DNA of 64,000 nt from contig NC_049979.1 of the NCBI RefSeq assembly GCF_000003815.2, positions 31,402,605 through 31,466,604 on the forward strand, written 5' to 3'. Of this stretch, positions 6,127 to 50,213 are shown in pieces. The translations under genes and the position numbers were made by a program. Each line of letters begins with the position of its first letter. The stretch's first letter is position 1. The notes below the pieces were generated by a model, which was not told the origin of the DNA, searched no databases, and saw nothing but the letters and a program-made list of their open reading frames with translations. The DNA is from Branchiostoma floridae. Taxonomy: Eukaryota > Chordata > Leptocardii > Amphioxiformes > Branchiostomatidae.

Positions 6127-8339
6127 ATGGGCTGGCCAGACTTGAACTTGAGTAGTTCCACGCAGGTCTGTGTGCGTAATTGTCTCCTATATTCAACGTC
6201 TATTGTTTGTCTCCAATCCGAGCAATTAAGGGCTGCTGTAACGTTTATATATTGAGCTTTCCGTTAACAAAAAGTTGAATTAGTTTCAGTCCACCATGTG
6301 ACAACTTGAACTGATTCAGTACTTTTCTGTAGGTGACTTTATGCGTAGCAACAGGTTGTGGGGTGGTTATGGCAGGCCTTCTTACCTTAAGACAGCTGAA
6401 GAAGTGGAGGATGAAGGGAAAGAAGACGGAACGCAGGAAGGATGTCGTGTACCTGCATGGCTTTCAACGTATGAAGTTCACACCCAGCTTAAGTGGGCCC
6501 TGTCTGAAGGTGGAAACGTGGCTGAGAATGGCTGGGGTCAAATATGAGGTCAGAGGCCTCTACTAAAGAAGCTACTACGAATATACCTGTAGTTCCAAAA
6601 TTGCTTAGATATTTGTTTAACATTTTTTTTCAGTGGTCTGAATCAAGACTTTCTAGATGGACCTTGCACACCTGTTTCTAAGTTAAAGCATGCATGGCAT
6701 TTCCCAAGGGATACTTTGATTTTGTATTAAAATATAAAAAAGTTCATCAATATATTTGTAATTGGCATTTGTGTTAATATCTACTCCCCTAGTTTGTTGA
6801 TGCCTCAAAAAGTGGTCAGAGGTCCAAATATGGACAGCTGCCCTTTGTGGAGCTGAATGGCACAGAGATTGCAGACTCCAACATCATCATCCAGCGGCTG
6901 GCCAGGCAGTTCAACGCAGATTTGGACGCTGACCTTTCACCAGAGCAGCAGGCTGTGGCACTGACCATCTCCCGTATGGTGGAGGAGCACACCAAGTGGT
7001 CAGAACCTTTCATTGCATGTTGAATGGTCATTTTTGTATTACTTATTAAGTACTTTTAATATCCATTGCTTTTAAAAACGATGCTAAATAGGGATATCAT
7101 GTCAACGGACGGTGCTGATAGCTATCATTAAATATTTTCAACACATTGCAGTCAACTTGACTTCCCTATATACAATGTACCCTGTTTAAAAAAATGGATA
7201 TTGGTTACCCTGCAGCTGGAGGGGAACTAGCATTACATTTTCGTCAGTGGCAGTCACTTTTGAATTGAATTTTTCTCTCAGTTTAAAGATGATTTTGTAG
7301 CTAGATTTACAGCAGCATAATTCTTGTATATCCACCCAAACCCCAAAGTGCTAACCCAGGTGAACCTGTGTCTACAGGACCATGTATCAGTACTATTTTG
7401 TGGACCGTCTGGACCTGTTCACTCAGCTAGTGGGGTTACCTGGGCCCAGGATCATCCACTGGCTTATACGCAACAGGGTCTCAAAGATGGTGAGGATTTT
7501 TTTTCCTTTTAAACTTACTAGCAGTAGCATGTCTACCTTGTGGTAGCTTTTCACTACTGTTGTAGCCTTGATTTGAACGTATTTGCCAGTTTGGTAAGTG
7601 ATGCCAGGCTACACTAGTAGTCCTAGTAGTGTCACTAGAAACACAACAGAAATAAAAGACTATAAATTTTCCTATTTTGTGTTGTGCTTCTTAAAGGTTG
7701 TCTGCTGTTTTATGTGCAGATGCAGACCAAGTTGTACCACCAGGGTGTTGGCAGGCACAGTAAGACAGAAGTGTACCAGCTGGGAAATGCTGACATCAGG
7801 GCACTCTCTGCACTGCTGGGAGACAAACCATTCCTCATGGGGACCAAGCCTACCACAGTAAGGGGCTCAGTATCTATTGCCCACTGCTAGCAAGACAAAA
7901 TATTGTACTTATTTTAAAGCAAATATGTCTGTTTAGGACGTGTTGCATTTATCTTGAGTGGGTAGCTAGTTGTTCCTCAAAAATACCAAAACTCCATCCT
8001 GTTTATCATGTTGCTACAAGATGCCAACATTACTCATAATTGTTTATCTAAAGATCTAGATTAACCAATCATGATTGAAGACACATTAATGAGCTGGAAT
8101 AAGTCTTGAAAATGCCATCTCAAAAGAGACTATCTGCTGGATACTTACCATTTGCTACCCTTGAAACCCAGGTTGATGCTTCAGTGTTTGGACAGCTGGC
8201 GCAGGTGGTTTATACGCAGCTGCCGTCACCACACAGGCAGGTCATTATCAACTCCTGCGACAACCTGCTGGACTACTGCGACAGGATCAAGGACCAGTTC
8301 TACCCAGACTGGGAACTGCTGTGTGCTGAAGGGCACTGA
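6127..8339 (+). CDS. FAXC: FAXC-like (failed axon connections) GST-fold protein
   Basis: Six coding exons: 6127-6165, 6333-6548, 6793-6998, 7378-7489, 7720-7857 and 8172-8339 (TGA), giving 292 residues. A hydrophobic membrane segment near residues 14-33 (VTLCVATGCGVVMAGLL..) is followed by a basic stretch. The thioredoxin-like N-terminal half includes 'SPSLSGPCLKVETWLRMAG'-type residues around the FAXC/metaxin 'LSP-CLK-ET-LRM' motif. The GST C-terminal half contains 'MVEEHTKWTMYQYYFVDR', 'ALSALLGDKPFLMG' and 'DASVFGQLAQVVY', all diagnostic of the FAXC/metaxin-like group. In Drosophila, fax acts with the Abl pathway in axon growth; the biochemical role of vertebrate FAXC is unclear. The protein ends soon after the GST domain, so it lacks the long acidic tail of vertebrate FAXC. 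The 13-codon first exon is the least certain part. Confidence 0.82.
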
Positions 8340-10671
8340 AGATTAGTGTCATGGAAATGCCAACTACTGTTTGTGTGTTTACGGTGAAAAGCTTGAGACA
8401 ACAAATCCATTAAAGGGAATATTGTTACAATGCACATGTAATTACTCATTGTTGATGTTCATCTAGACTAAAGGGAACTTCCAATATTAAAGCATCACAA
8501 CATGCTGACCTCACCCCATTATATAAAACTGAATGAAATCTATATGATGTTAAGGACAGCAAGGATACTGATATTACTGTGCTAGAACTGCCAATGTGCT
8601 GGTATGGGACTGAAGGAAAGTAGTGCTCTGTAACTCTTAAGAGGAACAGAAAATTCATTGATGCTGCTTTGTACCTGTGCAGATGATGTCAGAGTGAAGG
8701 TTTGGTAGGTAATTTCAGTTGGCTTTTCAGTTGACTTGATGTTTGCAAAGTGGTATTTTTTAAACATAACATTGTGCAGGCAGTGGCATACTGGTACAGG
8801 ATGATTGTACTTTTCATTGAGCTTGCAAATAAGACCTCTGCTGTATCATGTCTAAAATTTGTGGTGTAATATAATCAAAGTGTGCTGTTTAAGAGAAACT
8901 AAGAATGTGGTCACAAAAATGTAGATATTCTAGATCTTGCTGTACTTTTTGAACATTCCTATGCAAATGAAAACATCTAAATGGAGTTTCCCCATGTGTG
9001 GTGCTTGATTAACGAAGACATGAGACAGAAACGAGTTGGGTGGTAAATATCATGTACTCTATGATATTGATCAGAGCTTTCACTTTCAGAGAGGTACAAC
9101 TGGGTGCAAATCCCAGGGCATGCACTGATGATACCTGGTGATATTTGGCACTATACACACCCTGCATCAAAATATACAAATACTACATGTATGTACATAA
9201 AATGCAGTGCAGAATAGAAAGAGCAGAACACTGACAAATCATGGCATTCACACGAAATATTCAATTCAGCAACATGCCTAAAGAATGTGATATACACAAA
9301 TGTACATAGCCTACAGCAATGGCATTAATTTCTAAGAGAGCTGATTATTCAGCATAGCAAATAATGGGCTAAACAAAAAGTAGAGTGGCTCTTATCCAGT
9401 CCATGGTAATTGCTATTGATTATACATTATTGTAAACATGCAATTTATCTTACCTAGCTAACAACAACAACAAAATTCATTAATTCATATGCTATGACAT
9501 GCTCAAAGCTAAGTAATGCGACAGCCTGAATGCTTGTTACCAACAAGGTTTAAGTGGGAAAAGAGTCCATTAACAGCTATTTAGCATCTGGTGGGGTATC
9601 TTGATAAATGCACAAAAATAACAATTTCAAAAGTCAAGACTGTAGACAAAAGTGCAAGGGCGAGTATAACTTTATACATTCATACCTATGACTGATCATA
9701 TGGTGTATATGTGGCAACATCATCTGATTAGGTTTGACTTCCCATACTACTACCCAGTATCTACCATATGTTTAATTATATGGTTGCCCATACACACGTG
9801 TGTACAAAGGTAATTACAAATCCATTTTAAACTCATTCTGTACAGATATTGCAGCTTAACTTACCGACATATTTGCACTTTTCTTAAAAAAGACACCATC
9901 ATTACCTACAAGAGAAGACGTACAAACTTGCCCTAATACCTACCAGTAGATGTAAACTTTCCCAATGACTTCTTCAGCTTCCAAAGAAAAAAAGTTTTGC
10001 TTGAAAAAGGAAAACTTGTCAATTGACATCTACATGCCATAACCTGTAGCACACTGCAGTAGCTGATTGGCTACCCATTCTCTATGTCTTATGGGACTAG
10101 GCAGAAGAGAGGAGATTAAAGGTATTTCACCTGAGAAGATGCAACTTATTTATTAGAAAGAAATTACCATATTTACTTAAATATCTCTTCTCTTTCCATT
10201 TTTACTGGATGAAATAAGCAAATAAATAGTCCAGCTTGACAAGTGAGACCACTCTACCTTATTTTAGTTTATATGTACATGGCTCTTTTCCTATCATTTA
10301 AACAATCACAAACTAAATCATGAGAAACAACACCATGAACACAAGCTTTCAAATTGATGATTACTAGAATATGAAAATATTGCCTTACCTAAACTGTAAG
10401 TACCATGGGGTGATTTTGTTTACTTGCCATTCCCTATACCTTAAAATATTTGTATGTACAAACCTACCCTAAGTTGTTTTTATCAATACATTGGGTCTGT
10501 GAACCTACCAAAAGATGCAAAAGAAAAGTGTTTTCTCTACGTCTGAGATGTGACAGCTGATGATGAGTCAGTGTGAGGACCAGCATCATGGTGATGTTTG
10601 TTTTGTAGTCTTTTCCAGGGCACAGCATGTCTCTATCTACAGTACCTATCTAGCTGTAACCATCCCCTATG
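8340..10671. other. Convergent intergenic region FAXC-like / SYVN1
   Basis: About 2.3 kb between two genes transcribed toward each other, so it should hold both 3' UTRs. The DNA is AT-rich with no supported ORF, RNA gene or inverted repeat. Open frames such as 8446-8658 and 8582-8767 on the minus strand have no family resemblance. Confidence 0.5.
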
Positions 10672-13600
10672 CTAAGGTTCTGTCTCCTCTTCTTCCCCTG
10701 GCTGTGATGATAACCTTTCAATTCTCCGTCTCCGAATTTCATTCGCATCTGTTTCAGGCGGCACCTCTGTGTCCTCCGGGATAAGCGTTTCTGTTTGTGG
10801 AGTAAATCCCACTGCACCTTCCAGCTCACTCAGATCTAGGAAAAGTCAATATGATATTCATGGTTTAATGTTGCCTGGTCTAATGTTTCAAATGAAATAC
10901 ATGTACTCATCACATATCAACTGCAACTGCAAGCAAAATATGTACATTTTGTTCAAGCACATATAATTGGCAATAAATTTTCTTTTGCATAGACAAAAAA
11001 AATGTCTTGATCGCTCAATTCCATTTCCACAAGGCTGGTCAAAGCTGGTAAAATCTTGAACAATACAAGGTATCACGAGTCATCAAGACATACACATACC
11101 TCCTGACTCTTCCTGACTCTGCCCACTTTCCTCTACTGCGGGTTTCTGTCCTGGGCTGCTAGGGGTCTCTTCTCGTGGTGACATCTTACTGGAAAGGACA
11201 CTGGTTACCTCTGTAGTGTCTGCAGGCTGGGTGGTGGTAGCTGTGGGCACAGGGGAGGAACCTTGGCCTGCAGTGGTTGCAGCTACAGGTGTTCTATAGA
11301 GAACAAGAAAACAGTGTTAAGGGAGAATATTTCATGTATCGGGGACTTCAAAGACAGTATTCTGTAACCCATTTAGTTTGAATTTGAAAATATCTCTTCT
11401 GTATATGCTAGATCATACCCAGGAAGTTTAAACTCAAGCTTTAACCTTGCTTGACGATGACTACTGAAATAAGTGCAATACTGACCCCAGTGTTGCCATG
11501 AGGGAGGTGTACTGCTGCATCTGCACCATGGCAGCATCCAGCAGTGTCTGTATGCTGCGCAGACACTCCACCCGAGCCACCAGGTGCTGCCTCTCCTGGC
11601 CCTCCATCGCTCGCAGCTCCTCCTCAGTCATACCTGAGTAGTTAGGGGAAGGCATGGGCGGTGGGACTGCAACAGAGACAGGATTACTACGTAAGCTTTG
11701 TGAAATTATTTCTGCTAACTCAATCCTATGGTAATGCTTACAGAAGACAACATGACACAAAACGGGAAGACTGTGCTGAAGTCCTCACAACACTTTTGTT
11801 TTCTTGCATTACAGGTTGAAGTATTTGCTTACCAAACGGTGGTGGTACAAAGAAGCCTGGCGGCATCATGAAAGGTGGAGGCAGGCCAGGCATTGGTGCA
11901 CCATGTGGAGGGGCAGGGGGAAATGGTGGGAGTCCTGCTACTGTGGGCAGAGGGCTGCCAGGTGGAACAGATGTCATAGCAGGTGCTGTGGAGCCAGGTG
12001 CTGCAGCTGGATTAGAGATAAATATTGGATAAGGACGTATGCTAACTAGCAAACAAATACCCTAACAGAATGAATTTGCATCGGCTGGTACAAATTGGAC
12101 CTGTATAACCTACTAAGAGCCTTGCAAAGTTTTGTTTTCAGTTACTGGCAAAAAAAAGACAGACTCAGTAGCAATCACATTTGTCCTGTTGCTGACTTTT
12201 GCCTGGTGAAAGCTCCAATTCCAGGAGTGCAGGACATAAATGTCATGTAGCTGTTGTGACATTAGGACCAGACTAGCCCAGCATACCTGCAGGCTGTGTA
12301 GCAGCAGTGGTTGAGGCAGCAGCCTGGGATGTTCCAGCAGAAGGTGGGGTCTGGGGAGGGACCTGGGGCACCTGTCCCGGGTGCACGTGGGGAGGTGGCC
12401 ACATTGGGAACCCAGGAAATACCGGGGGAACTGCAAGGTGTAAAGAATGAGAAAACATGCTTGAAATCATTGCAAAATCATGAAGATTCACAGTGTGAGG
12501 GCCATTCATCTGTGAAGTTTAGGGACTACCAGGAACAAAGGCAAGGCAAAGAAATGTAGAGTTAGTTCTACTAAAATTTGTACCAAATTGCTTTCTTCAA
12601 AGGTAAAAATAATCTTAGAGTTTTGTTTGCATGTGCAATATGTTTAAGCTACAAACCCTAGCACATTGAAAATAGAATAGCTCATAATTGATATAGGTAC
12701 TGACTTTGCTGCGGTGGCTGTGGGGCTGGTGGTGGCTGTGGCGTGGCGTTCTGCTGCGGTGGGGGAGCCCGAAGCACGTCCATCCGACAGGTGGGACACG
12801 TCTGCTGACGCTGGAACCACGAGCGCAGACATGATGTGTGGAAGATGTGGTTACAGGGCAGCTTCTTACTGGCCGTCACCATCTCCTCACGACAGATGAT
12901 ACACACATTGTCAGCCTGGGCAAGCTCTTCTGGGGTGGCATCAGGGTATCTGGGGGAGGCAGGGAAAGCAAAAAAGGAATTTTGAAACACATGTACACTA
13001 ACTGACATGGAGAAACTATCCACAAATTAAAAATAAAGTTCAACATGAATTGTCAATATCTATGTCTTAAACATTATCTAAAACATTGTTTATCTTACGA
13101 CTTGAATACTTTTTGGCAGACTACTTACAGTGTGTTCATGTTCCTGATGGCTCGTCTGGACATGATGACATCATTCACTGCCTTCTTGAAAGCTCTGTAA
13201 AAACAACAGTTTACATTTAGTGTCATCTCTAATACTAGTATGTGATTTTGGCATGTTCATTCCATTATACGCTCTGTTAGTGGTTGCACCTAGGCAGAGC
13301 AAAGGTGTTAAGTTTGAAAAGCTAAGTAGGAGTGCTGACACTAGAATCTATTACATACTCAGCACAGTTTTTTAAAACATAAAATGATGTGCAATGGCAC
13401 TAATCAAGTATCTTTTATTGGTCAAACATTGTAAAACAGAGATATTCACTGTACATTATCTATGAAGACAATAAGAAGCGACTTACCTGACAGTAAGGTA
13501 CATGGGTCTGATGGCGAACAGTGGGAAGGTGTGCACCTTGATCATGATGATCATGAAGGCCATATACAGCAGGACCTTCACAAACCCTGTCAGTATAAGG

Positions 13601-16600
13601 CATCATTGTGTCAAAACAACATTTATGCGTAAATAATTATATGTATATATAGTGTCTTAAATTTAAGTTGAATGACTAGGCCAGTGCAGACTAAGGCTGG
13701 TTTCAGAATATGGTTTCTGCTTAAGTAACTGCATTTAACTTTTCATTCCATTATAATTATAGTCCTAAATGGACCTGTTTGGACCACCAATTTTTTACTT
13801 GCCCTCAAAACTGTCACAGTGGGCACAAGCCATGTATGTGGTTACAGGTACTCTATAGCCATATCTAAGCTCATGATCATACACACCCATGGTCAGTTCG
13901 GTATATAGGAGGTAGACAGCCTTGTTGTCCCATGGGTTCTCACTCTGTAGGTCGATGGTGTGTAGAATGTACTTCACAAAGGTGGTGATTACCATAGTGA
14001 GCAGGATGGCATACTGTGGGAACACACAGGAGATTATATATTTCAGTACTTACTAGTATGTCCTGGCAACGTCTAATGTAAGGAATGATCCAACACATTT
14101 GTGCCAGTAATATATTGACATGAAATAAAACAAGTTGCCTCAAACGTTAGCAATTTGTAGCAAAACAATTCAGCTCCATAAAGCAAACTTCAACAGCTGC
14201 ACCTCTAGAAGAGGACTAACCCATTCTTACAACAAAACAGTCAGAAACTACCTCCTGCTTGTAGTCTCCAGGAAAGATTAAAGTCACAATTCATACAGCT
14301 CAAAAAGATGATGATTTCATTATCATGGCAGCTGAGGCATTCAAATACTGCACTTATTGGATACAAATTCCGACTAAGACGTTGCCAAAAGGTAAATACA
14401 ATACCACTATGCCACTTAAGTCCCAATCACTGACAACCCTTCAACCACAACGCACCTCAAACCCAAAGACAAGCTGCACAGTAGCTCCTCTGATAAGCGT
14501 GCTGTGGTAGGCATGGCTGATGAACATGGCATCCAGACATCCCAGTACAAGTAGTAATGCTAAACAATGGGAAACAAAGCTATTACATCAGAGGTAACAA
14601 CAAGTCCATGTGTACATTAGGTGGCCAAATGCTTCAACATCTCCCCAATAGATTCGTGTGTAAATAGGTATCTAAAATTCACTCTATACATGGGCTCACA
14701 GCAGGAATAAAATGAAACATTTACAGAACATAAAATGTATGTACAGTGTTCATGATTCTGCATCAGATCACAACTGTCCACATATCTATGATATTGAACT
14801 TTTATAGAACATTCCATGAATCTATTGTTTGCAGAACACTTATATGTAAAAATATTGATTTAACGACTTAAGCATACTGAAATTAGCAGGCTAGTGCAAG
14901 AGGACGAGTGAGTGAGTGAGTGAGTGAGTGAGTGAGTGAGTGAGTGAGTGAGTGAGAGTGAATTATGACACTTTCAAACAAGGCTGGATTTGAGCTGGTG
15001 GAAGAAGAAGTACTGTGAGTGATAAGAGGGTGACACCACAGGCAGCGAAGCCCAATTCACCTAGGAATCATCAGGTATGATAAGACGATACTCACATATG
15101 ACTCTGATATGGAATAGCCAAGAAATTACAGGACTTCTCTCCATCTGCAGGAAACAAGTCAGATTCACAATGGTTTTTACAGTGCACAACATCATCAATA
15201 TGGATGCTGACTGAAGTTATAATATGAACAAACAACGAAGATTATCCAGAATTATCTAAAACCAAGGAAAATTTCATTAGACTGGCTCTTGCAGACTGAT
15301 TACTTATACTCACATAGTCCACTCTATCCTCAGCTAGCCAGTGGAAGCACTTAAGGAACAGCAAGAAGGTGAAGAGTGCCACGAATCTGGGGCTGAAGTC
15401 ATCCCTGAAGACCGTGAAGGCTAGACAAGTCTCTGTCACAGCGTACCATGACCGCTCTATCAGATGCTGTACAGTGAAGATCATACAATAAATGTCACAT
15501 CTTTATCACCAAATTTCCACCAGTTACCAGGGGCTGAGCTCTAGGTGAAAATAGTTATCTACATAGTACTTTTGTTTAATTCCTATCTTGTGTTAACCAT
15601 AGACAGGCTGCTAAAATACTGTAAATGTATTTCAGTTTGCGGGGATTTAATTTCGCGGTAGCGGGAAAAAGGACTTTTCGCAGTGGATTTAAGTTCGCGG
15701 TAACACCATAGACTGCAATCTAATATCATAATAGAAAAATGTTCGCGGTGGTTTTAAATAAAACCGCGAACATTAATCCACCGCGAACATTTCTGCATTT
15801 ACAGTAGTACTCTTTCACATAGGATGTTATGATATACAAGGTTCTTGTACGATGATCAGTTGGTTAGTTGTTGGCCAACAGGACAACTAATTTTATCAGC
15901 TTTTTAAATTTTCTGTGTGCGCACATTCATGAGTGACTTTAAGTGAGTTCTTGCTCCCATACTGCAACCCCTAGCAGCGTCCTTTGAAACTACAGATTAC
16001 ATAAGCTACCCAATACAGTGGAAGCCAGTTAATTGCACAACGGACAATTGCACACTTCTGTTAATTGCACAAAATCCCCAAATTCCCTGGTGGTGCAGCC
16101 CAGCTTAATAACTTCGCTTTGTTGCACAATTCAGATAATTGCACGAAATGCATTGGCAAAGTGGGTATGCATAATTTTAAGCGGCTTCTACTGTAGATAC
16201 AAATTATGATACATGTAACAGGTGGGAATAATTTATGCTTCCCGTTGAGCTTTAATCATGCTCTACAATTACAAATACTATCTACGTAAGGTTCTTGTCA
16301 ATGGTTCGTAATAACATCATCCCACGGTTAAAACAGCTGACGCCTTAGTTGACAATAGACCAGGATGCGAGTGTACCGGTACTGGTGACCCACCTCCATC
16401 TCAGCCGCTCTCAGCTGCCCGAAAAACAACTTGCGAACCAGCTTCCCCATGAGGATGACGATCACGAAAGCTTGGATGTACAGCACCTATAGGGAAATCG
16501 GGATGTTTCGTATAACTATTAACCTTTTCTGAAAATTTGTACCAAATATATAAACTGACGAAAACCGACAGGTGACACGTTGCATAGGATAGACTGCACT

Positions 16601-16779
16601 GTTCAACAACTGATCTGACATGCAGACGAAAAATGAAACACGGTACTCACAGCCATACTTGGATTAGACTTGGTCAGGTAAACTACAGAAGGGTAAAATT
16701 GTTGTTTCTGGTAGTATGCATTTCCTATGACTGCCGCAGTTAGGCATAGACTGCCTAACGTTAGCACTACAGCCCGCAT
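10672..16779 (-). CDS. SYVN1: Synoviolin / HRD1 ER-associated RING E3 ubiquitin ligase
   Basis: Fourteen coding exons, read 5'->3' on the minus strand: 16779-16651, 16486-16394, 15466-15314, 15144-15096, 14559-14456, 14013-13887, 13586-13487, 13194-13129, 12949-12705, 12430-12287, 12006-11833, 11666-11486, 11293-11100 and 10835-10672. All phases join, giving 640 residues (human is about 617). The N-terminal 250 residues are the multi-pass ER membrane domain ('QFYPSVVYLTKS', 'FFGQLRAAEME', 'SWYAVTETCLAFTVFRDD', 'DLQSENPWDNKAVY'). The RING-H2 ligands are C290, C293, C306, H308, H311, C314, C325 and C328 ('PCNHIFHTSCLRSWFQRQQ'). A long proline-rich cytosolic tail follows. HRD1 with SEL1L drives ER-associated degradation of misfolded proteins. 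I chose ATG 16779 because it matches the family N-terminus; an in-frame ATG at 16812 would add 11 residues. Confidence 0.96.
14906..14955. repeat. (GAGT)n microsatellite in SYVN1 intron
   Basis: About twelve near-perfect copies of the tetranucleotide lie in the intron between SYVN1 coding exons 4 and 5. A polymorphic simple repeat with no coding role. Confidence 0.95.
15619..15804. mobile_element. MITE with CTGTAAATG termini (TA target site)
   Basis: The 186-bp block begins CTGTAAATG and ends CATTTACAG, is flanked by TA on both sides, and carries internal inverted copies of 'GTTCGCGGTGG'-like sequence (around 15741-15790). The terminal inverted repeats, TA duplication and small size fit a non-autonomous Tc1/mariner-type element. 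It lies in the intron between SYVN1 coding exons 2 and 3. The superfamily is inferred from the TA dinucleotide and not from a transposase. Confidence 0.75.
16016..16193. mobile_element. Pogo/Tigger-like MITE
   Basis: A 178-bp block starts CAGTGGAAGCC and ends GGCTTCTACTG, flanked by TA on each side (16014-16015 and 16194-16195). Internally 'TTAATTGCAC' recurs in both orientations. Termini of the form CAGTRGAA..CC with TA target duplication are typical of pogo/Tigger family derivatives. It lies 191 bp from the 15619-15804 element in the same SYVN1 intron. It has no ORF. Confidence 0.75.
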
Positions 16780-17322
16780 TTTGCCTGATTGTGTTGAACG
16801 CTCTCGAGACAAGAAGTCAACACAACATGGCCGCCACCGCCCGGGACGTATTCGGTGATCTCCGTTCTTCCGAATATTTCCTTATATGGAATAATGATTT
16901 GGCTGGCTGTCATTGGATGGATTTATCGGACTATACTATTAAAGTATTTCTGGGCAGAACTACATTTACGTCATTTTTATATTCTTAAATTTACAGCATA
17001 TGGATAGAAAAATGAAAGTTGTAATATTATATTATATCAAATAGTGCAATTTATCGCCTTTAACCGTATTCATGAACATAAGATTATTCTCTTTTTCTAT
17101 CGTATCCCCATCCCGACAAGTATGTACATGTCCTTTAACCAAATATGGCTCTTATGTATGGTGCGCAAGCGTGAAATAGCAGACGGCTTTTTCCCGCGAA
17201 ATTCGGAATTTCTGTCAGCTTCGAATCGTTCTGAGATTCTGTCAGGGAAGCGCCAACCTTGGACTGAGAGGTTTGGTCAGGCCTTGTGTTGGTTCTCTGG
17301 TGGTCTCCATTCAGCCTAGGCG
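16780..17322. promoter_or_regulatory. Shared bidirectional promoter region, SYVN1 / Speedy
   Basis: The start codons of SYVN1 (minus) and of the Speedy gene (plus) are only 543 bases apart, head-to-head, so both promoters and 5' UTRs must fit here. CpG-bearing GC-rich patches occur near 16823-16860 and 17165-17290. No TATA box is placed convincingly. The division between the two promoters cannot be drawn from sequence alone. Confidence 0.6.
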
Positions 17323-20257
17323 ATGTTTTCCGGCTACAGACGCGCAGTGCAGACACATGGGTTATTTCCCGAACAACTTTCCACCCCGTCCAGACAGACT
17401 GAACAACGGCGGGCTGTTGTCAGTCGCGAAGGTTCCTCAGAATGTCGTCTGCAGGCGCAGGAAAACGCCGCCCATTCTGAAGTAAAAGGACTTCCCAGAA
17501 GATCCATCATGACCAGTTTCGATTCCGATGCAATGATGTGTGACCAAGGTAATTAATGCCTTTTTATCGCTATAGTATTATTGGTAAGTATGTTCTTGTT
17601 GGAATTTTTTATTTGTCTCTTAATTTTTATGAAGTTATGTGTTTTAATGAGCCCCAAACCGCCGGGTTGTAACATAATGCGTCATGATCATGATCATAAT
17701 CTTCTCATCCTTATGTGCAATGTCTAATGTTACATGTCGAAGTTGGGGAGATATATGGACCATGCAGTTGTCATTCTTGACGCAGATGATTTCTACCGCG
17801 AGCCGTATCCGTCCGAAGACTTTGACTCTTCGTTTTTTGCCAACTCTGAGATGAGCATCTGGGACATGGAGGGACAGTCTGAAGAGTGGGACAAGACGGC
17901 GGGCCCGTCTCCTCTGGTGGCAAGCAAGCAAGAGACCCCGATCCTGACACGTCCCCTGGTCCCACATGTGGGGAAATCACTGCTCAGCAAGCGGAGCCGG
18001 ACTCCAGAGAGGCCCCCACACCCAGCTCCTTGTCCTCTGGCAAAGAGGATGAAGAAACCAAGTCTTATTGTCAAAACGACCGAGATGGATGCTTTCTTCA
18101 GGCTGATAGGTAACCATTGACAATATAGTAAAATATGATTCAAAGCTAAAAAAAGTATAGGTCTTTTTCTTTTGTATACAGTAAGTTAAATGTCCAATAT
18201 ATTCATTTCTCTTTCTTTAAACTGCTGTAGACCAGCCACAGTGATTCCATACATTGATCCAAGCATAGATAGAAACATTTTGCCAGTTCTCTTGACCATA
18301 AGCCCAATTAAGAAATGCAAAAAATATTTACACAGATGATGACCTGATTCAAGACTTCCTTTGGATGGACAGATGTTGCAGGATAGCAGACAAGGTACAG
18401 ACAATTTGATGGCATATAACATTAGTCCTGGTATAATTACTATAGTACCTTTGCCAAGAAGGCTATTGTATTCTACTTTGGGATTCTGCTAGCCTTCGGT
18501 TGTTATTTTTTCACAGCCTTCCACACTGGTATTTGCAAAAAGAAGACTAACTTATGCCATAATATTATATTGTTGTCCCATTTCTTTTAGTACTTGTTGG
18601 CCATGGTGTTTGCCTACTTCAAGAGAGTTGGATACTCTGTGCAGCAGTACAACAGGATGAACTTTTTTGTGTCTCTGTGAGTACCTTCTGTTGGCAACAT
18701 TTTCATCAACAGAATAAATCATAACCACCAAATAAGCATCTGATGCTATGGGAAATGAGTCTGTAGCAGATTTAGATTGATGAAGATTACAATAATCTGA
18801 CATACTAGTAAGTTGTGCATCAGGTTTATTCAATAACATCTCAATTTTCTTTAAAGAACACATGTTATTGTAATCACACACATATAGAAAGAGCAATTTA
18901 GTATGGTCTGTTGACATTGAAAATCCAAATTGATTTTGTGCATCATGGAAGGTTTCACAACCCTCCATCTTAAATGGTAAAAGTCCAACTATAGTGCTAC
19001 AATTGCTTTCCAAAATATGTTCAAGTTTCTGAAATTGATACTGTCCTCTTTATGCATCAGCTACCTGGCCAATGACATGGAAGAGGATGAAGATGACATG
19101 AAGTATGAGATCTTCCCCTGGGCCCTTGGTGTGGACTGGAGGAGCCGGTACCCACGTTTCCTGAGGAGGAGAGACCATCTGTGGGAGGCCATGCACTACA
19201 GGGCAGCTGTCAGCAGGAAGTGCTGCGAGGAGGTGACACATAGTTTTATATGTACCAGCCATGGCCTACCATTGCATATCTACAGATAAATGTGCCAAAA
19301 CATTTGTCTACAGATAAATGTGCCGAAAAACTTATCAACTTCCTTCCTTTCCAACTGCCTAAGTAACTCAGTGCATTACTTGATTATCTTATACTTCCTG
19401 AATCCTGATTAATATCTAGTTGATTGTTGTTGCTTATTGTTATGGCTGTCTTTTGCCTCAGTTTCAGTCTAGCCAAATAAGACTTTTTACAGAATTTATC
19501 TAAAAAGCAGCTTGTAGTCAAATTTGAATATTCCTCCCAGAATTATGATAGACACCACCTGTTTTTTTGCAGATCATGCTGATTGCTCCATGGCACAACA
19601 TCTGGCAGCGTCTGCGCTCTGACAACCATGCAGGGGCAACACGACACTACCCAAAAGATGAACATGATTATGAACCAAGGGGACCAGGCTATGAGCCAAT
19701 ATACTGTGCCCCTTGTCAGGTAGAGATGATTTCCTGATTCCTAGACAAGTTTCCACATACTTACCCAAAACACTGGTAGCAGTTACAGATTGGAAGTTGG
19801 AGTTCAAACACTATCAATTCCCATCATTTGTTATATTTCAATTCTACCATGACAGAAACGAGAGAGAAAACTTTTTTGTGATTCTGTGTAGGGTGCAGTG
19901 GGAGACATTGACAGCAGCAGTGACGGCTATGAGTCTGACAGCCAAGCCAGTACCTACCTGTACCTGTCAGAGACCTCAGAGTCATCACAGGAGGATCCCT
20001 CCCTCTCCATCGCTCCAGAAGACTGGTCCAGCTTCAACATGCAAGGTAACATTTTCTGCATAGTCTCGATTGACTATTCATGTTTAAGTCAAGTTTCAAA
20101 CAATAATATGAATGGAGTTTACTTGTTATGAGGAATCTCAATGGAAGGGTGGCAACTCATAATTATGTGACTTGCAGGTCTGAAGAAGACACTACAGACA
20201 GACCCTGTGCCTGTTGGAGATGATGCTGACTCCATCTGGGCCAGTAAGGAAGAGTGA
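17323..20257 (+). CDS. SPDYA: Speedy/RINGO cell-cycle regulator
   Basis: Eight coding exons: 17323-17548, 17768-18109, 18336-18394, 18591-18676, 19061-19232, 19573-19719, 19892-20045 and 20178-20257 (TGA), giving 421 residues. The Speedy/RINGO core spans about residues 181-335: 'MDAFFRLIDDDLIQDFLWMD', 'CCRIADKYLLAMVFAYFKR', 'SLYLANDMEEDEDDMKYEIF', 'PWALGVDW' and 'SRKCCEEIMLIAPWHNIWQR'. By family, this cyclin-like fold binds and activates CDK1/CDK2 without T-loop phosphorylation, in meiosis and the G1/S transition. The tail is serine- and acid-rich ('SDGYESDSQASTYLYLSETS'). The acceptor of exon 2 (17766-17767) has a poor pyrimidine tract. ATG 17734 just upstream is in frame and could start a shorter form from an alternative promoter. 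In vertebrates the group has SPDYA, SPDYC and SPDYE; this single gene may predate that split. Confidence 0.9.
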
Positions 20258-20934
20258 TTGGATTGTGGCTCAAGTTAGTAACATGGCTTATGCCTCAGCT
20301 GTGAGAGGGATTCTTTTAGAAACATTCATGTTCAATTGTTTGTGTGAGCCAAAACTGTTCAAAAGTCAGAACTGCTGATGTGATAAAATGACAGACTTAT
20401 GCATTTTTTTCCTGCTATGGCACTGAACATAGTGAGCAAAATAGTCTCAGGGATAAAGGCTGATGACTGAAATTGTCAATACTGTTTTGTGCATTTGATT
20501 TTGAACTGGTCCATTTACTTTTGTTGATACCAGGGAATGATGATTTGTATTGTTTGGTGTTCATTAAGATTTACTGGTACCACTGGTTACAACAGTTATA
20601 ATGAATTTGTTCATATCAATTTTAACTGATTTATACTGATATCAGTACAGAAGACGGATGTATAGAAGTCCAAAAAAGAGGCTGGGATAATTATTTATGA
20701 ATAGTTGTTTAATGTATATTCTTCTGTAATACTATGTACAGAATGGTGATGTACATGTACTATTTGCACAGAAATGTCAGCAAATTAAGTGACCTGTACA
20801 TAGATTAACATATTGTCTATTAACTCTATTTGGCTGTAGTCAAGCATAATAATATTAATATTTTGGTCTGCAAAATAGGTTCCATAGGTAAAGGAAGGAT
20901 GGCATCTCTTTCTGAAGAGAACTTGTGTACAGTC

Positions 20935-20942
20935 AATAAAAG
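20935..20942 (+). terminator. AATAAAA poly(A) signal of the Speedy gene
   Basis: An AATAAAA sequence lies about 680 bases past the Speedy stop and only about 100 bases before the stop codon of the convergent TRMT61B gene (21041). It is a reasonable 3' end signal. The two transcripts probably come very close or overlap. Confidence 0.5.
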
Positions 20943-21040
20943 TTAAGTGTATGCCAATGAGGGTTAGTGTGAAGTGAGGTGTTGGTACTGGTTCCTCATA
21001 ACACAGTCAATTCATGACCTGGCTACTTCTTGTGATTTTG

Positions 21041-24011
21041 TTACATGGTGAATCTTGAATGTCTTGTGTCAGAGTAGACCCTCAGCTTCACCAAAAACCC
21101 TGAAATGAAGAAAGTGTAAAATGTTATGAAAAGAGACAGAGAATATAGTGCTGCCATTTAACACCTTGTGATTGTAATCATTGAACTGTAATAATGGTTT
21201 TGTTTTTTGGGAGCGGTAACATTGGTCCTACAGCAGGTTCTGCCTTTAATACTACAAATACTAGAAATGCAGAAACCTTACCAGTATGGTAATCCTGCTT
21301 GATAGAAGGTCTGGTCAAGAAAGCTGTGTCTTCTGTTATCTGCTCCCCATTCTCCTCTTGTGTTGAAGATCCTTAAAACAAGTAAAGGTAACAGAAATTA
21401 GTCTTCAACTAGAGAAGATGGTACCCTAACTGACTAAGAAGGTGTTCTAGCTTTCAGATTAGTATAACACACATTACTACAATACAGGTAGATGTTTTAT
21501 GTTTTAATTGACATAAAAAGAATACAAAGAAAAATATATTGAATTTTTTCATATTCAAATTTCCAATGAAAGATGGTACATCACAGGAATTCACCGGCAT
21601 CATTGACTGCACAGGGATACTTTATTACCTTGTTCCTCATCACTGCTGATCTCCCCATGTGATGTGCTGCCAGGCTTGTAGATGAGTCTGCCTGTGTAAT
21701 GTCGTGCAGGTGTGACGAGCCAGTTCCTGTGTTCCACCTCTAACACCTGCTCCACTACCACTGGCAGCTGATGCTTCAAAATGCTGGCCACCAGGTCGAC
21801 CACCTGTGTCATGCTAAGTATGTACATGGAAACACAATGTGTCATACTAAGTTCATGGAAAGACGAGGGTTTCCATATTTTCGGAAACAAAGAAAGAAGC
21901 TATCAAAATATGACTAAACAAACCATAAAATGTTTTCACTGCGTCAAAAAACTAAGGCTATTAGTGATATCTTACTTGACGATGTGGCATGCAATCACTT
22001 TGCCAGGCTTGATGATAGGTAAGACTGCACGCAATCCAATGTTAGGAGTCAACATATCTAGGAATGCCTGTGAAATAGAAACACTGATGTTAGCTATCAT
22101 ATTCATATCAATTCCAAAACTCATCCATCTGTCAAGGGGTAAACTGGGACAATATGTTTTTATTCCTTTTTCTTTACTTCGGGTGAATTCGGGTGACAAG
22201 CATTTCATGATAAATTTCTACGTTTGGAAGAAAAGATTTGAAAGGACGGTAACTGCATTTCCACATCTTCTAGACTAATAGAGGTCTGAGTTTGAACATT
22301 AGAATAAAAAGAGATAGCCCTGTGTGACTTACCCCATCCAGCAGGTGTTTGACCTTGTCTGTGGCATTTATCACATCTGCTTGATGGAAGGTCACATTGT
22401 CGGGCCAGTCTGTCTCGTGACTCAGCTTCCAGGAGTCCATCCACAGCCTGAACGAACACACTTGATGTTTACAGCAAGCAGAACTCAGTTTGTTTGTTCA
22501 AAACTTTAAATCAAATGCAGCTGCAGCAGAACACCAATCAATGATAGGTAACTAGATAAAAAGCATCGCTTTACTGCTCACCTGTAGTTACGTTTAGCTC
22601 TGTTCAGGTGATCCTCCTTACTATCAAAGGAGATGACCCTGCCTGTGACTCCCACTGCTCTGGACAGAAAGAGAGTCATGGCACCAGACCCAGTCCCACA
22701 CTCCAGTACCCAGTCTCCTGGTGACACATCCAACAGGCACAGGGCTGTGTTGTTGTTCTGCAGGAAGAAAAAAGACACAAACGACTAACCTAAGTCATAC
22801 AAGTACTTTCTTAGCCAGATTTTTTCTGGTTTGCTATGATGAGCTTAAGATGGAAATTCTGTGGGCCTTTGGAGAAATGACCTATTTTCAGAAGCACCAA
22901 TGGCAAAGGGTTATGATCTCTTACTCTAAGCAGGTGACAGGATATGTGCTTTCTTATATTTTTTTTACTTACAATGTGTTACAGCTGAAGAAATTAAACT
23001 AAAAAATTTTCTTAAGTATAATATTCTAATTTCTTGCAGGTTCAACTCAGGCACTGCTATCCAAAATCCTCCCACCTTTGGGTGTGGGATAGCAGCAATC
23101 TTCTTCATTTGGAGTGTGAACTCTTCTAGACTCGGGCGGCGAATGATCATCTCTGTGCCAGTTGAGGTGATGTAGGTGTCTCCTGGATTCTTCCCTATGA
23201 TGTCTTCAAACAGAATCATCCCATGCTTACTGTTGACCTTCCTTTTGTCACCCAGGATCCACATCTTGCAAAAGTGCTGGACTTCTTTCTGTTCCTTCAG
23301 CTCCGCTATGATTGCTTCTCCTACCCTGAGGGGCAACTGCTTCACAGGCGATTTGAACACTTTAAAATTTGGTAGATTAAAATTCAAGTCAAATGGAAAC
23401 AAGTTTGATCTTCCTGTTGAGCTCAAGTCTTTCTCATCTTTCATCCCTGAGAGTTGATCATCATAGTCTTTGTCCATACGGTCATCTTGAAAAACTTTAT
23501 TGTTTTCAGTTCTAGTCTCGTTACTAGTTTTATGACTTATTTTTCCTTCTTTCAATGACTCACTTTCATTGCTAGACTTTTGAGCAGATTCCATCTCGAA
23601 TGCACCCAAGTCGGCCGCTTTGCTCTTCCAGAAGTCCGGAGGCATAAATCCTGTAACGCGTTGAAAAGGTGACAGGGGGCGCCCACGCAATCGGCGGCCC
23701 ATGGGTTGCATACCGAGTTCCTGATCCTGATCTGACCCTGCAGTTGGTTCTTGTGGTGAATCCGATGGATAGGAAGGCTGGGGAGAGGATTCTAACATTT
23801 CGCTTCCCTTATTCTTTTCGTCCTCCAGCCTACCTTCCTGTTGTTTCTCATCTTTGGCATGGTCTCTTTCCGTCGAAAACAGACGAGCAAACAGAACACC
23901 CGGGGACCTCTGATCATAACTTTGCCCATTTTGAACCATCCGTTTCCGAACCCGGCACACAACTGCCTGGCATTTCAGATGACATCCCACATGTCGGTAC
24001 AGCTGCATCAT
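21041..24011 (-). CDS. TRMT61B: Mitochondrial tRNA (adenine-N1) methyltransferase
   Basis: Seven coding exons on the minus strand: 24011-23076, 22757-22582, 22447-22333, 22067-21976, 21813-21629, 21371-21282 and 21099-21041 (TAA), giving 550 residues. The N-terminus is basic and hydroxylated without acidic residues for the first 30 or so positions, fitting a mitochondrial targeting peptide. A long low-complexity region follows, then 'LRGRPLSPFQRVT'. The methyltransferase domain starts near residue 255, with SAM-binding motif I 'VLECGTGSGAMTLFLSRAVG' at about 329-348, 'GRVISFDSKEDHLNRAKRNY', 'AFLDMLTP' and 'NMTQVVD'. It ends with 'HTGFLVKLR', the usual C-terminal motif. By family it methylates A58 of mitochondrial tRNAs (and mitochondrial 16S rRNA). 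Start: ATG 24011 is the first ATG; the open frame extends upstream without an ATG. It is convergent with the Speedy gene 784 bases away. Confidence 0.94.
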
Positions 24012-24886
24012 AATTCGATCTGTCTTTTGAACCACGAACAAATAACATCACAATTCTTCAAAGTTGGCCTCAACCATGCATTTTTCTTCCACCAACAGTG
24101 CGACCATGCGTCCAGCTGAGGGTTGCAACTTTTAACCTTTGACAGAATATCTCATTATGTGGTAGGGGCTAAACGTTTCTCAAAGCAGGCTAACAGTGGA
24201 TCATCTCGCAACGAAGCAATGTTGTAAATTGTAAGATAGTTAACGTTATATGTTTTCAATTGATGGTATCAATTCACATCTGCTAAGTATTTACAGGTCA
24301 ATATTTTTTTCAAGAAATTGCCACCCCTATTATGACTTGTACCATTCCGGTGAATCTTCTTTCAGGGTGTTTTGGGATTCACATTGATTGATTTAAAAAG
24401 CTGAACAGAAACAGATGGGGAGGCTTTAGGACAAATATACAACGATCACACGAAACAATATGTTGTTGGGTCCTAAAGAAGGGACGAAGATGAGTGTCGT
24501 GTCGTGTAGGTGGGAGGAAAAAGTCAGGTTATGAGGTGAGTGTTTAGATGCTTGTTCCATCAAAGAGGTTCCACCTTGGGTACCTTGGGGAGTTGGGTAC
24601 ATGATGCATATGTGTAGTGATATGGGATCATATTGTAGGAGGGTGGCAAGGTTCTACTTCTAGTTGGTGTGCAGTTGAGGTGTGGGTTCTGCTAGGCTAG
24701 TCCTGCAAAGAAATTTATGTATACTGCATGTTATTGTATATGATCAAAGGGCATGTTTGCTGTAGTCAAATATATCTGGGTTACATCTCCATCATGCATC
24801 AGGGTGTTCTACAGATGATTTGTTTTACCAAGTTCCTTGGTTTTCCTCACAGTAAGGGATTGAACTACTAGTATATAATCCCTTTC

Positions 24887-25107
24887 ACAGAGATCAGAAC
24901 GCATGTGCGGCGACAGGAATTCTAGGTAATATGTCAATGGTAAAGTCCTTGAAAGACAAAACACTCGTTGTCTCAACCATTGTTTCGATTTGCATAACAT
25001 TAACAATGTCCCGACGGTTTTGTTTCTTTTTTTGTGTGTGGCCTTTACCTTTGACATATTACCTAGAATTCCTGTTGCCGCACATGCACTCTGATCTCTG
25101 TGAAAGA
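24887..25107. repeat. Inverted repeat (MITE-like), arms about 64 bp
   Basis: The left arm (about 24887-24951) and right arm (about 25041-25107) are reverse complements at roughly nine of ten positions, sharing 'TTTCACAGAGATCAGA', 'GCATGTGCGGC' and 'ACAGGAATTCTAGGTAATAT'. They enclose a spacer of about 90 bases. This looks like a small foldback or MITE element, but I could not assign flanking target duplications with confidence. Confidence 0.65.
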
Positions 25108-25377
25108 GATTTAGCGAGAGGGGGTGGAGAGGACTGGCGCGTAGGGGGAGAGCTAAGGAAAAAATGATCCAAGGGGAGGGCCAAGGAAATTTTTTCTCAG
25201 AAATGGCAATACCTGTTCAACACTAGGAAACTACACCGTATGTGTCTTTTGGAGAGTTCCCTTGTAGGAAATGGCAGATTTTAGACAGGCACGATGTCAG
25301 AATATTTGCGGATCTCCCTTGCAATGCTTGCGCCTTTGGCAGACTATATGGTGAAGTCGAGTTAGTGTACATATATG

Positions 25378-25418
25378 CAAGGAGGTTAAAAAAAAGTTTT
25401 TTTTAAAACCTCCTTGAT
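25378..25418. repeat. Near-perfect palindrome just upstream of the carboxypeptidase gene
   Basis: AAGGAGGTT, an A run, a central G, a T run and then AACCTCCTT form an almost uninterrupted palindrome 75-115 bases before the carboxypeptidase start codon. As RNA it would make a stable hairpin in the 5' UTR; as DNA it could be a cruciform. Function unknown. Confidence 0.7.
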
Positions 25419-25490
25419 ATATGATATATTTTCTTAATAATTTTTCAGGATTATCAAATTGATGTGCAATATCCTTGAAGAGGAATCATC

Positions 25491-27843
25491 ATGACTGTGT
25501 ACAGTTGTAGTCATGTACCCCAGCGGCTGGGGAGGACCTTGTGCAATCCCCTCCTCCTACTGTACATATCACTGCTACTCCTCCTGACCTGGTTACCACA
25601 GACACAAAGTCGAGACGTCAAACCTGTCAAGGAAAAATACCTGCCTGACTACACTGTGTACCACAACCTGACTCAAGTTGGAGCTCACATACAAGAACTT
25701 GCGCAGAAATTTCCTGCCTATCTTAGGTTAGACACAAGTTACCGTTCCAGAAAGGGACGACCGCAGTACGTATTGAGAGTCTCCAACTTTTCAGGGAGCT
25801 ACAGTATCCAGCATAGCACGGAGGTCGGAGTCACGCCGGTGAAGGCTCGCATCCTGCTGGCTTACGGGGAACATGCACGCGAATTTTTCCCAGTGGAGAG
25901 CATGTTTCACTTGCTACTGAATCTGACAGGGGGTCTGACAGCAACAGAGGGGAGTCACAGCAGGGCATACACTAGCGAGATTCTGTCCAAGATAGACCTG
26001 TTCATAGTCGGCATAGTGAACCCAGACGGTAGACATCACGTGGAACAAACTAAGAACTACTGTTGGCGTGGGACGAGTACAGGAGTGGATCTGAACAGGA
26101 ACTTTGACTGGCAGTTTGGCGGTCCTGGTAGTTCGGGGGACCCTGAGGATGAGGAGTACAGGGGATCAGCTGCATTCTCTGGTAAGGACAGCCTGATACA
26201 TGAATGAGGGTCTGATGGATTGTGCTTGTGCTTGTTGTGCTTGTGATGTTATGTGATTTTGATTTGCAATTGCAGGGCTCTATATACACATTTTAAAAAT
26301 CTCTTTTAGATTGAAATTTCTAAGAAGTTTATATGATACATGATCAGTGGCCTTGGCCTTGATGTGAATTGACCTCTTCACCATGTTGCCCTTTTCCCTT
26401 GTAGAGCCAGAGTGCTTGGTGCTGACAGATCTGGTAACAAAGTTCCAGTTTGATGCTTTCCTGTCTCTACACTCAGGCACAAGGGACATCTACCTCCCAT
26501 TCTCTGGTCAGTTGTGACAGGCTAACTCCACTCTGTCCTACAACAATAGAAATTAGAAAAATGTAAACTGTCCATGCTTCAAATTTACAGTATTGCCAAT
26601 TCAAGGTTGTTCCCAGCCTAGTCAAAAGAAGATTATAATGCAATTTTCAGTATAAAATTTTGGTCTTGTTTGGTGGCCAAATTGAACAGGATCAATTACT
26701 AGTATTACTGTAGGTAAACTAAAAGACTATGTGGGGGTATTTCATATCTTTGTATTAAGTTGCTAACTTCTCAATTTAGATACAATGTGTCTCAAAGATT
26801 ATGAATCCATTTACTAAAGGCAGTACATGTAAAAGTATATAGTCCAATCCATGAAGTGAACCAGGCAACTAATTATCCCCATTGTTGTAGACTCTCAGTC
26901 CAAGCATGAGCAGAGGAAACCTAAGAACCTGGCTGACCAGATGCGCTTGGCCAAACTGTTATCTGACGCTATGGTACCAGAGTTCCAGCACGGGATTGGC
27001 TACGAGCTGAACCAGTACACAGCAGACGGGACGTCGTTCGACTACATGGCAGGGGTAAAGGAGGTGAGTCAGACATTATTTACAGCACTTCTTTCTCCTT
27101 CATTACAGGTGATGATCTTACTAATATTTAGGATTGCTTCGGTACTTCATTATGAGCATGGTGCATGTCATCATCAGACACACATGACTGTCTATTCTCC
27201 TTCCAGCTGCCTTTCTCCCTGGCAGTGGAGATGTGGGGAGACCGTGACAGTCCCAGTAAAAGGTGCTTCGACCTCTTCAACCCTCCCAACAAGGATCTGC
27301 AGGTGGGTCAGTATAGGTCAATAACACATTATTTGGATGGCTACCGGTAAAAGCTTTTCCTCTATTCTTGTGGCTCTCTATTTTTGATGTTTGTCTCAAT
27401 ATTGTACATGTACAGTATTGAACCTGAAAAGTTTCTTAAGCATTAACATTAACATTATGTCCTTCCCCAGACTGCCCTGGATGAGGTCCAGCCGCTGTAT
27501 GAGACTCTCTTCTCCTACCTGAGCTACTGGAAGGAGCGCCAGGCTCGCAGCCCATTTGGAGTTATCGAGGTAACAGAGGTTTGAAAGCAACAATGTTTAT
27601 GTCATCCTTGGTTATTCTAGCTGCAAAACTACTAGTATCAGTAAGACTGTACTTCACCAAACTGAAAAGATGTTTGTGTTTCTGCAGGAGCCGTCCATGT
27701 CTTTTATGTATTTCTGCCTGTCCATGACGGTGTTGTTTGTCGTGTTTGTGTGCATGCACCGCCACCTGCCATCATCGCTACGGGCATTCCCCAAGCGCCG
27801 GGTCATCAGCATCAACCGACTGTGGATGATGTGGAGGGACTGA
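25491..27843 (+). CDS. Membrane-anchored M14 zinc carboxypeptidase
   Basis: Six coding exons: 25491-26181, 26405-26506, 26891-27063, 27207-27302, 27471-27569 and 27688-27843 (TGA), giving 438 residues. A signal peptide or anchor lies at about 20-40 (NPLLLLYISLLLLLTWLPQT). The peptidase_M14 domain carries zinc ligands H128 and E131 in 'YGEHAREFF' and H253 in 'LSLHSGT'. The substrate-binding pair N202-R203 is in 'LNRNFDW', and the catalytic glutamate E330 is in 'LAVEMWGD'. There is no long activation propeptide like that of pancreatic carboxypeptidases. A transmembrane segment at about 392-412 (SFMYFCLSMTVLFVVFVC) and a short basic tail suggest a type I membrane protein with an extracellular or lumenal active site. 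All key residues are present, so an active enzyme is likely. The exact subfamily and substrate are not clear; it resembles the 'GEHAREF' group more than CPA/CPB. Confidence 0.9.
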
Positions 27844-48153: not shown

Positions 48154-48426
48154 ATAATGATAGGACCGGCGGCTTGGTAGTGTATAGATCCGACATCTTG
48201 ATGAACATGCCCCCTAACAGTACGGAGGCGTAGCAAACCACCACCACCACCACCACCACTCTGTTAGTCGTCATGTATGTTACCTGTGTTCGTTCTTGTT
48301 TCAAAAGCAGGTCACAGGTACGTTTAAACAGACCTTTTGACCCCAACCTTTCACCTTTTGATATCAAACAAAGTCATTTGGAGGCCATTGTACAAACGAA
48401 CTTCCATATCCCGTGCACCCACAGTT

Positions 48427-48994
48427 ATGTCTGCGGAGAGCGTTTGTTCGGTTCTGTCTCTACTGCTGTTTGTGGTGGTCAGTGTTCCGCCCGGTGTACT
48501 GACCACCCCGCTGGACGACTACGTCAACAAGCCGGACCCTCACTACTCCTACCACGAGGTGTTGGAATGGCGTCTGAAGGGTCCCGGTTACACCATGTAC
48601 CTCCTCAACATGACCTCACAGCAATGGCTCACAGGTGAGGTTATACATGTTCAAAGCGCAATGAGAAATGAAGTTCAAAATGGTACCCCCATTGGTGAGT
48701 TTTTTATCTTTAGATTTAAGTGCCGTCACTGTTTCAGAAGATAAGTATAGGTGCCGTTACTGTAACAGCTTGGATAAACACATACGAAAAATGTATAAGG
48801 GTACGTATGCTTTTTGCTCACTACACACGGCTTAGTTAGTGTTATACGCTCTCTCTGCTTGTACTTACAGAAGAGGAAGTAAGCCGTCCGATCTGGTGGC
48901 ACTTCCTGACCGTCACTATCCCAGACAACATCACCCATCCTGACGCCGCATTTATGTTCATAGAGGGAGGAAGAAATGACCGTAAGCACGGAAG
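48427..48994 (+). CDS. PhoPQ-related / AprA-type hydrolase, gene B (3' part in gap)
   Basis: Two exons, 48427-48634 and 48871-48994, are nearly identical in protein to the start of gene A. They share '[19 protein letters not shown]' and '[20 protein letters not shown]', with the same phases. The start ATG 48427 opens a signal peptide (MSAESVCSVLSLLLFVVVSV..), showing that the family is secreted here. The second exon ends 'GGRNDRKHGR', three residues different from gene A. Later exons should fall in or after the 790-base gap at 49138-49927; none is recognisable to its right, so the gene may be truncated or the assembly may be wrong there. A tandem duplicate of gene A. Confidence 0.85.
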
Positions 48995-49137
48995 GTATAA
49001 TCAACAGCGTAACGTACCCTCGTTTTATTACCTTCACGAAGAGGGTATGTTTTTGGTGTCATCTGTATGTTTTGTGTGGACCGCATAACCCGGAAAAGCC
49101 GTGGATGAGTGAGTGAGGTTGGGGTCGAGAAATAAAG

Positions 49138-49927
49138 NNNNNNNNNNNNNNNNNNNNNNNNNNNNNNNNNNNNNNNNNNNNNNNNNNNNNNNNNNNNNNN
49201 NNNNNNNNNNNNNNNNNNNNNNNNNNNNNNNNNNNNNNNNNNNNNNNNNNNNNNNNNNNNNNNNNNNNNNNNNNNNNNNNNNNNNNNNNNNNNNNNNNNN
49301 NNNNNNNNNNNNNNNNNNNNNNNNNNNNNNNNNNNNNNNNNNNNNNNNNNNNNNNNNNNNNNNNNNNNNNNNNNNNNNNNNNNNNNNNNNNNNNNNNNNN
49401 NNNNNNNNNNNNNNNNNNNNNNNNNNNNNNNNNNNNNNNNNNNNNNNNNNNNNNNNNNNNNNNNNNNNNNNNNNNNNNNNNNNNNNNNNNNNNNNNNNNN
49501 NNNNNNNNNNNNNNNNNNNNNNNNNNNNNNNNNNNNNNNNNNNNNNNNNNNNNNNNNNNNNNNNNNNNNNNNNNNNNNNNNNNNNNNNNNNNNNNNNNNN
49601 NNNNNNNNNNNNNNNNNNNNNNNNNNNNNNNNNNNNNNNNNNNNNNNNNNNNNNNNNNNNNNNNNNNNNNNNNNNNNNNNNNNNNNNNNNNNNNNNNNNN
49701 NNNNNNNNNNNNNNNNNNNNNNNNNNNNNNNNNNNNNNNNNNNNNNNNNNNNNNNNNNNNNNNNNNNNNNNNNNNNNNNNNNNNNNNNNNNNNNNNNNNN
49801 NNNNNNNNNNNNNNNNNNNNNNNNNNNNNNNNNNNNNNNNNNNNNNNNNNNNNNNNNNNNNNNNNNNNNNNNNNNNNNNNNNNNNNNNNNNNNNNNNNNN
49901 NNNNNNNNNNNNNNNNNNNNNNNNNNN
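49138..49927. other. Assembly gap (790 N)
   Basis: Interrupts hydrolase gene B after its second exon. It may also hide the 3' exons of the minus-strand GH81-like gene. Confidence 0.99.
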
Positions 49928-50213
49928 TACCTCCAGTGATTTGGAATACATACTTCTTTTGCTCTTCTAAAATTTTGCCGGATTACAAACATCACCTCTC
50001 TTCATATTCCGCTGATATCTATCCCTTATGTTGAATTTGCGCCCTTTTACTAGTACCGCTCTCAGTACTTTTTAAATGACATCTATCCATCCACCATACA
50101 TATATTATCCACTTTCAATAACACAAGGAATGGATAGCACAACTTCAGTTCAGTTTCTTTGCACAAAGTAACATATATTTCCTTTGAATTTTATAGTACG
50201 TCTGGTACCGCTC

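Follow-up and report, generated by a model that had tools for sequence, protein, structure and literature searches.

An amphioxus SYVN1-Speedy-TRMT61B triplet as a likely pre-duplication block split between two vertebrate gene neighbourhoods

Results

A contiguous amphioxus triplet matches two separate mammalian gene pairs

In a 64,000-nucleotide stretch of the genome of the amphioxus Branchiostoma floridae (chromosome C1:31402605-31466604, called the window from here on), the genes SYVN1 (minus strand), Speedy (plus), and TRMT61B (minus) are contiguous within 13.3 kb, arranged head-to-head and then tail-to-tail. Mammalian genomes hold these genes as two separate pairs, SYVN1 with SPDYC and SPDYA with TRMT61B. 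The best reading, and one that we consider likely, is that the triplet represents a chordate block predating the two rounds of vertebrate whole-genome duplication (2R), which split it with reciprocal loss of neighbours. We favour this reading because amphioxus shows both of the adjacencies that mammals keep apart, and because calpain and EHD paralogue pairs are listed around both mammalian Speedy genes.

Models of the three genes were built by joining exons at GT-AG sites. The coding span of SYVN1 (HRD1/synoviolin), 10672..16779 on the minus strand, runs from a start codon at 16779 to a stop codon at 10672-10674 and comprises 13 modelled exons plus a 22-residue exon at ~13128-13193 that the model missed. 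The Speedy/RINGO gene, 17755..20257 on the plus strand, has seven modelled coding exons (17755-18109, 18336-18394, 18591-18676, 19061-19232, 19573-19719, 19892-20045, and 20178-20257) encoding 350 amino acids, with the start codon at 17755 being a choice of the model. TRMT61B, 21178..24011 on the minus strand, has six modelled coding exons encoding ~565 amino acids and a stop at 21178; position 24011 marks the first of two adjacent methionines, and the model begins at the second. The outer bounds of the block, 10672 and 24011, thus coincide exactly with the stop of SYVN1 and the start of TRMT61B. The stop codons of Speedy and TRMT61B are separated, tail-to-tail, by 920 bases (20258..21177) with a CpG observed/expected ratio of 0.04. 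Eight open reading frames (ORFs) chosen from this gap and from the gap between SYVN1 and Speedy (16780-17754) had no Pfam match.

Pfam and searches against solved structures were used to name each gene. The N-terminal 340 residues of SYVN1 matched the E3 ubiquitin-protein ligase synoviolin (8kes) at E 4e-190, using a query corrected by hand (the skipped 22-residue exon added, an over-extended exon 2 trimmed), and single exons matched Pfam TPR_SYVN1_N and RING. The protein has both the N-terminal membrane domain and the RING-H2 domain of the SYVN1/HRD1 family, with synoviolin as its best match. One exon of the Speedy gene carries the Speedy box that defines Speedy/RINGO proteins (Pfam Spy1, PF11357, 5e-23), and the product matched Speedy protein A (5uq1, presumably the human protein) at E 1.1e-66, with 94 of 152 aligned residues identical. 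The name of the third gene is settled by its TR61B_FKBP-like domain (Pfam, 1.4e-13), which accompanies a methyltransferase domain as in TRMT61B and not TRMT61A; its product matched 2b25 at E 3.9e-67, versus 6e-7 for TRMT61A (5ccb). The 2b25 entry is labelled 'hypothetical protein', and we take it to be human TRMT61B. Together, the gene models, Pfam, and structure searches bear out the identities, order, and orientations that a first-pass annotation of the window had proposed, with coordinates exact to the base.

A Pfam search of the whole 513 Mb genome (513,431,437 bases in 431 contigs) found each of the three as the sole gene of its kind, so that all three are single-copy at the sensitivity of this search. 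Spy1 had three exon matches, all in this Speedy gene (two above the cut-off, the third at E 0.33), SYVN1 had five, all in this one gene, and TR61B_FKBP-like had one. The case of a different amphioxus Speedy orthologue, which the first-pass annotation had raised against its own proposal, did not arise in this search, which found one Speedy. As a pre-2R block should be, the triplet is single-copy and contiguous in an unduplicated genome.

Mammalian neighbourhoods of the two Speedy genes

In vertebrates, we take SYVN1 and SPDYC to be divergent and SPDYA and TRMT61B to be convergent. The mammalian pairings themselves come from papers. An 80 kb sheep interval, chr21:42,654,067-42,734,621, has SYVN1, SPDYC, and CAPN1 as candidate genes in a table that is possibly incomplete (PMC11276604), and a longer sheep interval holds FAU, MRPL49, SYVN1, SPDYC, RASGRP2, EHD1, CDC42EP2, POLA2, and CAPN1, listed in an order other than map order (PMC10298528). 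A mouse chromosome 17 list, whose order we assumed to be map order, runs from Spdya through Trmt61b, Wdr43, two small nucleolar RNAs, Fam179a, BC027072, Clip4, Alk, Ypel5, and Lbh to Lclat1, and onward to Capn13, Galnt14, Ehd3, Xdh, and eventually Birc6 (PMC3443222). Human single-nucleotide polymorphisms in introns of SPDYA and TRMT61B lie 27-34 kb apart on chromosome 2 (PMC7101319). We did not rely on a COVID/obesity paper that lists PPP1CB, SPDYA, TRMT61B, WDR43, and FAM179A, as it gives a chromosome 19 coordinate beside the list. Papers on sheep, mouse, and human thus agree with the pairings given in the first-pass annotation, SPDYA with TRMT61B and SYVN1 with SPDYC, and their lists place different neighbours beside the two mammalian Speedy genes. 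With SYVN1 and SPDYC listed together in sheep, and Spdya next to Trmt61b in mouse, the amphioxus block combines two adjacencies that are separate in vertebrates.

The lists around the two mammalian Speedy genes also contain two paralogue pairs, CAPN1/Capn13 and EHD1/Ehd3. Since calpain and EHD relatives stand in both, the lists point to duplication of a block. This observation bears on another possible history, in which Speedy was duplicated in tandem inside the ancestral block and a translocation between the copies then carried SYVN1-SPDYC and SPDYA-TRMT61B to different chromosomes, without whole-genome duplication or loss of neighbours. Such a history would account for both adjacencies with fewer losses, but breaking a single block would not give rise to the calpain and EHD pairs. 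Moreover, EHD_N has a single match in the amphioxus genome, so the EHD pair, too, looks like a product of vertebrate duplication. We regard tandem duplication with translocation as rather unlikely.

Alternatively, the block could be ancestral and yet SPDYC be no 2R duplicate: SPDYA could have been copied later, with the copy inserting next to SYVN1, or SPDYA itself could have moved. The vertebrate Speedy sequences compared here were Speedy A chains only, which leaves room for such an origin. However, the amphioxus Speedy gene adjoins SYVN1 too, and a later copy landing exactly beside its ancestral neighbour would be a coincidence; we judge this origin very unlikely.

Four families from the mammalian regions lie on C1, with gene order scrambled

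Eight gene families (MRPL49, EHD, BABAM2, POLA2, FAU, BIRC6, MEN1, and STRN), whose human members we take to lie near SPDYC or SPDYA, were chosen beforehand for a test of linkage by whole-genome family search, and the first four of these gave an answer. All four answered families are on C1, 11-31 Mb from the triplet (POLA2 at 0.83 Mb, MRPL49 at 14.38 Mb, EHD at 15.26 Mb, and BABAM2 at 20.13 Mb). C1 spans 35,335,272 bases, or 6.9% of the genome by length, giving a chance of 2e-5 for four of four, a figure that was obtained without a control family. For these four families, the content of the mammalian regions is conserved on C1, and the order is not. MRPL49 and SYVN1, for instance, lie within one 62 kb interval in cattle (PMC6332854) versus 17 Mb apart in amphioxus, indicating that order was scrambled around an unscrambled triplet.

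The same scrambling bears on whether the triplet could be a chance or lineage-specific arrangement that agrees with mammalian neighbours by coincidence. Chordate linkage groups have for the most part had their internal gene order scrambled (PMC7269912), which speaks for such a reading. For that very reason, though, it is very unlikely that two separate adjacencies would both match by chance: even within one chromosome, the probability is ~0.1% per matching pair, taking an assumed count of 26,000 genes spread by length. We find coincidence extremely improbable.

A putative bidirectional promoter between SYVN1 and Speedy

The start codons of SYVN1 and Speedy face each other 975 bp apart (the Speedy start being modelled), across a gap at 16780..17754 with a CpG observed/expected ratio of 1.05. 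In 500-base steps covering positions 8000-26000, the ratio was 0.69-1.02 in the five steps from 15500 to 17999 and 0-0.47 in the remaining steps that fall within the three genes as far as 23499; it climbs again (0.79, 0.68) where TRMT61B starts. The ratio for the whole window is 0.55, so CpG-rich stretches also occur elsewhere in it. An unmethylated divergent promoter would be the natural reading of the pattern in the gap, which is probably a bidirectional promoter common to SYVN1 and Speedy. A further Speedy exon may lie upstream, within this gap, where an open frame runs as far as a GT near 17551. Such promoters have precedent in the genus, as 25% of neighbouring genes in B. lanceolatum are in bidirectional promoters, and vertebrates lost most of 372 ancestral ones (Marletaz 2018, PMC6292497).

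Other features of the window and its flanks

The window and 100 kb of flank on each side contain 203 coding-like segments; the 10 + 18 ORFs from these that were scanned with Pfam, some of the 10 being from the window itself, yielded no additional gene that could be assigned to the mammalian regions. The flanking genes identified encode ZW10, MYND/SET, GOLD_2, and GST-like proteins, a carboxypeptidase, and an aminotransferase. The GST-like gene (6832-8336, plus; GST_N_4 and GST_C_6), presumably of FAXC type, lies past the 3' end of SYVN1, and the zinc carboxypeptidase gene (25479-26204, plus; Peptidase_M14) adjoins TRMT61B. The aminotransferase, at 39318-41169 (minus), belongs to class V, and among solved structures its best relatives are the 2-aminoethylphosphonate-pyruvate transaminases; to our knowledge, vertebrates lack this phosphonate enzyme. 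The MYND/SET (L002), ZW10 (L004), and GOLD_2 (L005) genes lie on C1 to the left of the window, as does one RALGAPB_N match among the 18 ORFs scanned, which by eye belongs to the L010 gene. A short ORF there (L008:4171-4362, minus) resembles by eye the RNA export factor NXF1, and Pfam found nothing in it; human NXF1 is at 11q12.

The remaining features are weaker. Exon-like ORFs at 50653-53537 (minus) had no meaningful solved-structure match, and one of them weakly matched the Pfam glycosyl hydrolase family 81 N-terminal domain (E 0.0034, below the cut-off). A weak PhoPQ_related match at 48328-48741 (plus; E 7e-4) falls just below the cut-off, and the stretch at 60817-61125 (minus) resembles it by eye, with no Pfam match. 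A long low-complexity stretch at ~2900-9720 of L013 has translations in which a DRQGARQTGSQTDRE-like unit recurs across many frames. Within the window, which has 2051 N, 48958-50034 and 55949-57087 are open in six frames and look like assembly gaps.

Discussion

The arrangement SYVN1 < > Speedy > < TRMT61B would, in the reading that we prefer, be that of the chordate ancestor before the vertebrate whole-genome duplications. Duplication would have copied the whole block, after which the copy in the SPDYC region would have kept SYVN1 and Speedy and lost TRMT61B, and the copy in the SPDYA region would have lost SYVN1 but kept its other two genes, Speedy and TRMT61B. In an unduplicated genome, one divergent promoter, probably common to SYVN1 and Speedy, would tie the pair together, and in vertebrates this tie could loosen after duplication had given each partner multiple copies. 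The first-pass annotation had proposed a pre-duplication block with reciprocal loss, and this proposal is supported in part: the order within the window, the mammalian pairings, the single-copy Speedy, and the placement of all four answered families on C1 speak for it, and we infer whole-genome duplication as the mode, the direction of loss, and the common promoter.

Several points weigh against this history. We know of none of the identified flanking genes from either mammalian region. The family tests on C1 depend on linkage conservation that was already known; because chordate linkage groups are conserved, four of four on C1 is expected once the triplet itself is there. The test also covers four of the eight planned families, without a control, and the overall comparison covers one amphioxus genome and published sheep, mouse, and human lists. 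As for the promoter, an exact-motif search of the window found neither the endoplasmic reticulum stress response element (ERSE), which we would expect for SYVN1, nor ERSE-II, and found the exact unfolded protein response element (UPRE) only at 3995 and 46000. The Speedy start is modelled, and the gap is measured between start codons, not mapped transcription starts.

The triplet resembles several known systems. Ancient metazoan microsynteny, reportedly described by Irimia and colleagues in 2012, is said to consist of small gene groups that have been together since before chordates, and the triplet is likewise a small gene group staying together. It also resembles the chordate linkage groups and 2R paralogons defined with the 19 chromosomes of B. 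floridae, in which one amphioxus chromosome corresponds to several vertebrate regions that have lost different members (Simakov 2020, PMC7269912). In that work, however, content is conserved and order largely scrambled, whereas the triplet keeps its order and, as we take it, its orientation. Finally, SYVN1 and Speedy, which lie head-to-head in an unduplicated genome with <1 kb between their start codons, resemble the ancestral bidirectional promoters that were disentangled in vertebrates (PMC6292497). The pair differs from these in that the linkage of SYVN1 and SPDYC survived, since the sheep table still lists both together.

We found no prior account of the triplet in the literature searched, although an earlier statement in work on Speedy evolution or microsynteny is possible. 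No title among the matches listed for papers naming SPDYC concerned gene order, and the available part of a paper on avian dot chromosomes (PMC12954441) contains nothing on SYVN1. Read in this way, the triplet illustrates well a process that is already known, in which opposite neighbours are lost after a whole-genome duplication, and does not represent a new kind. A bolder idea is that the SYVN1-Speedy promoter was an ancestral bond between endoplasmic-reticulum-associated degradation and a meiotic cyclin-dependent kinase activator, holding the pair together amid chromosome shuffling, and that SPDYA was able to specialise in the germline because, after 2R, its copy of the promoter was freed from SYVN1. 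We think this unlikely.

The triplet is a clean case, open to checking, of a gene order in an unduplicated genome that predicts the surroundings of two vertebrate genes. It suggests that SPDYA and SPDYC are 2R duplicates, and it singles out one promoter for testing whether it broke up after duplication.

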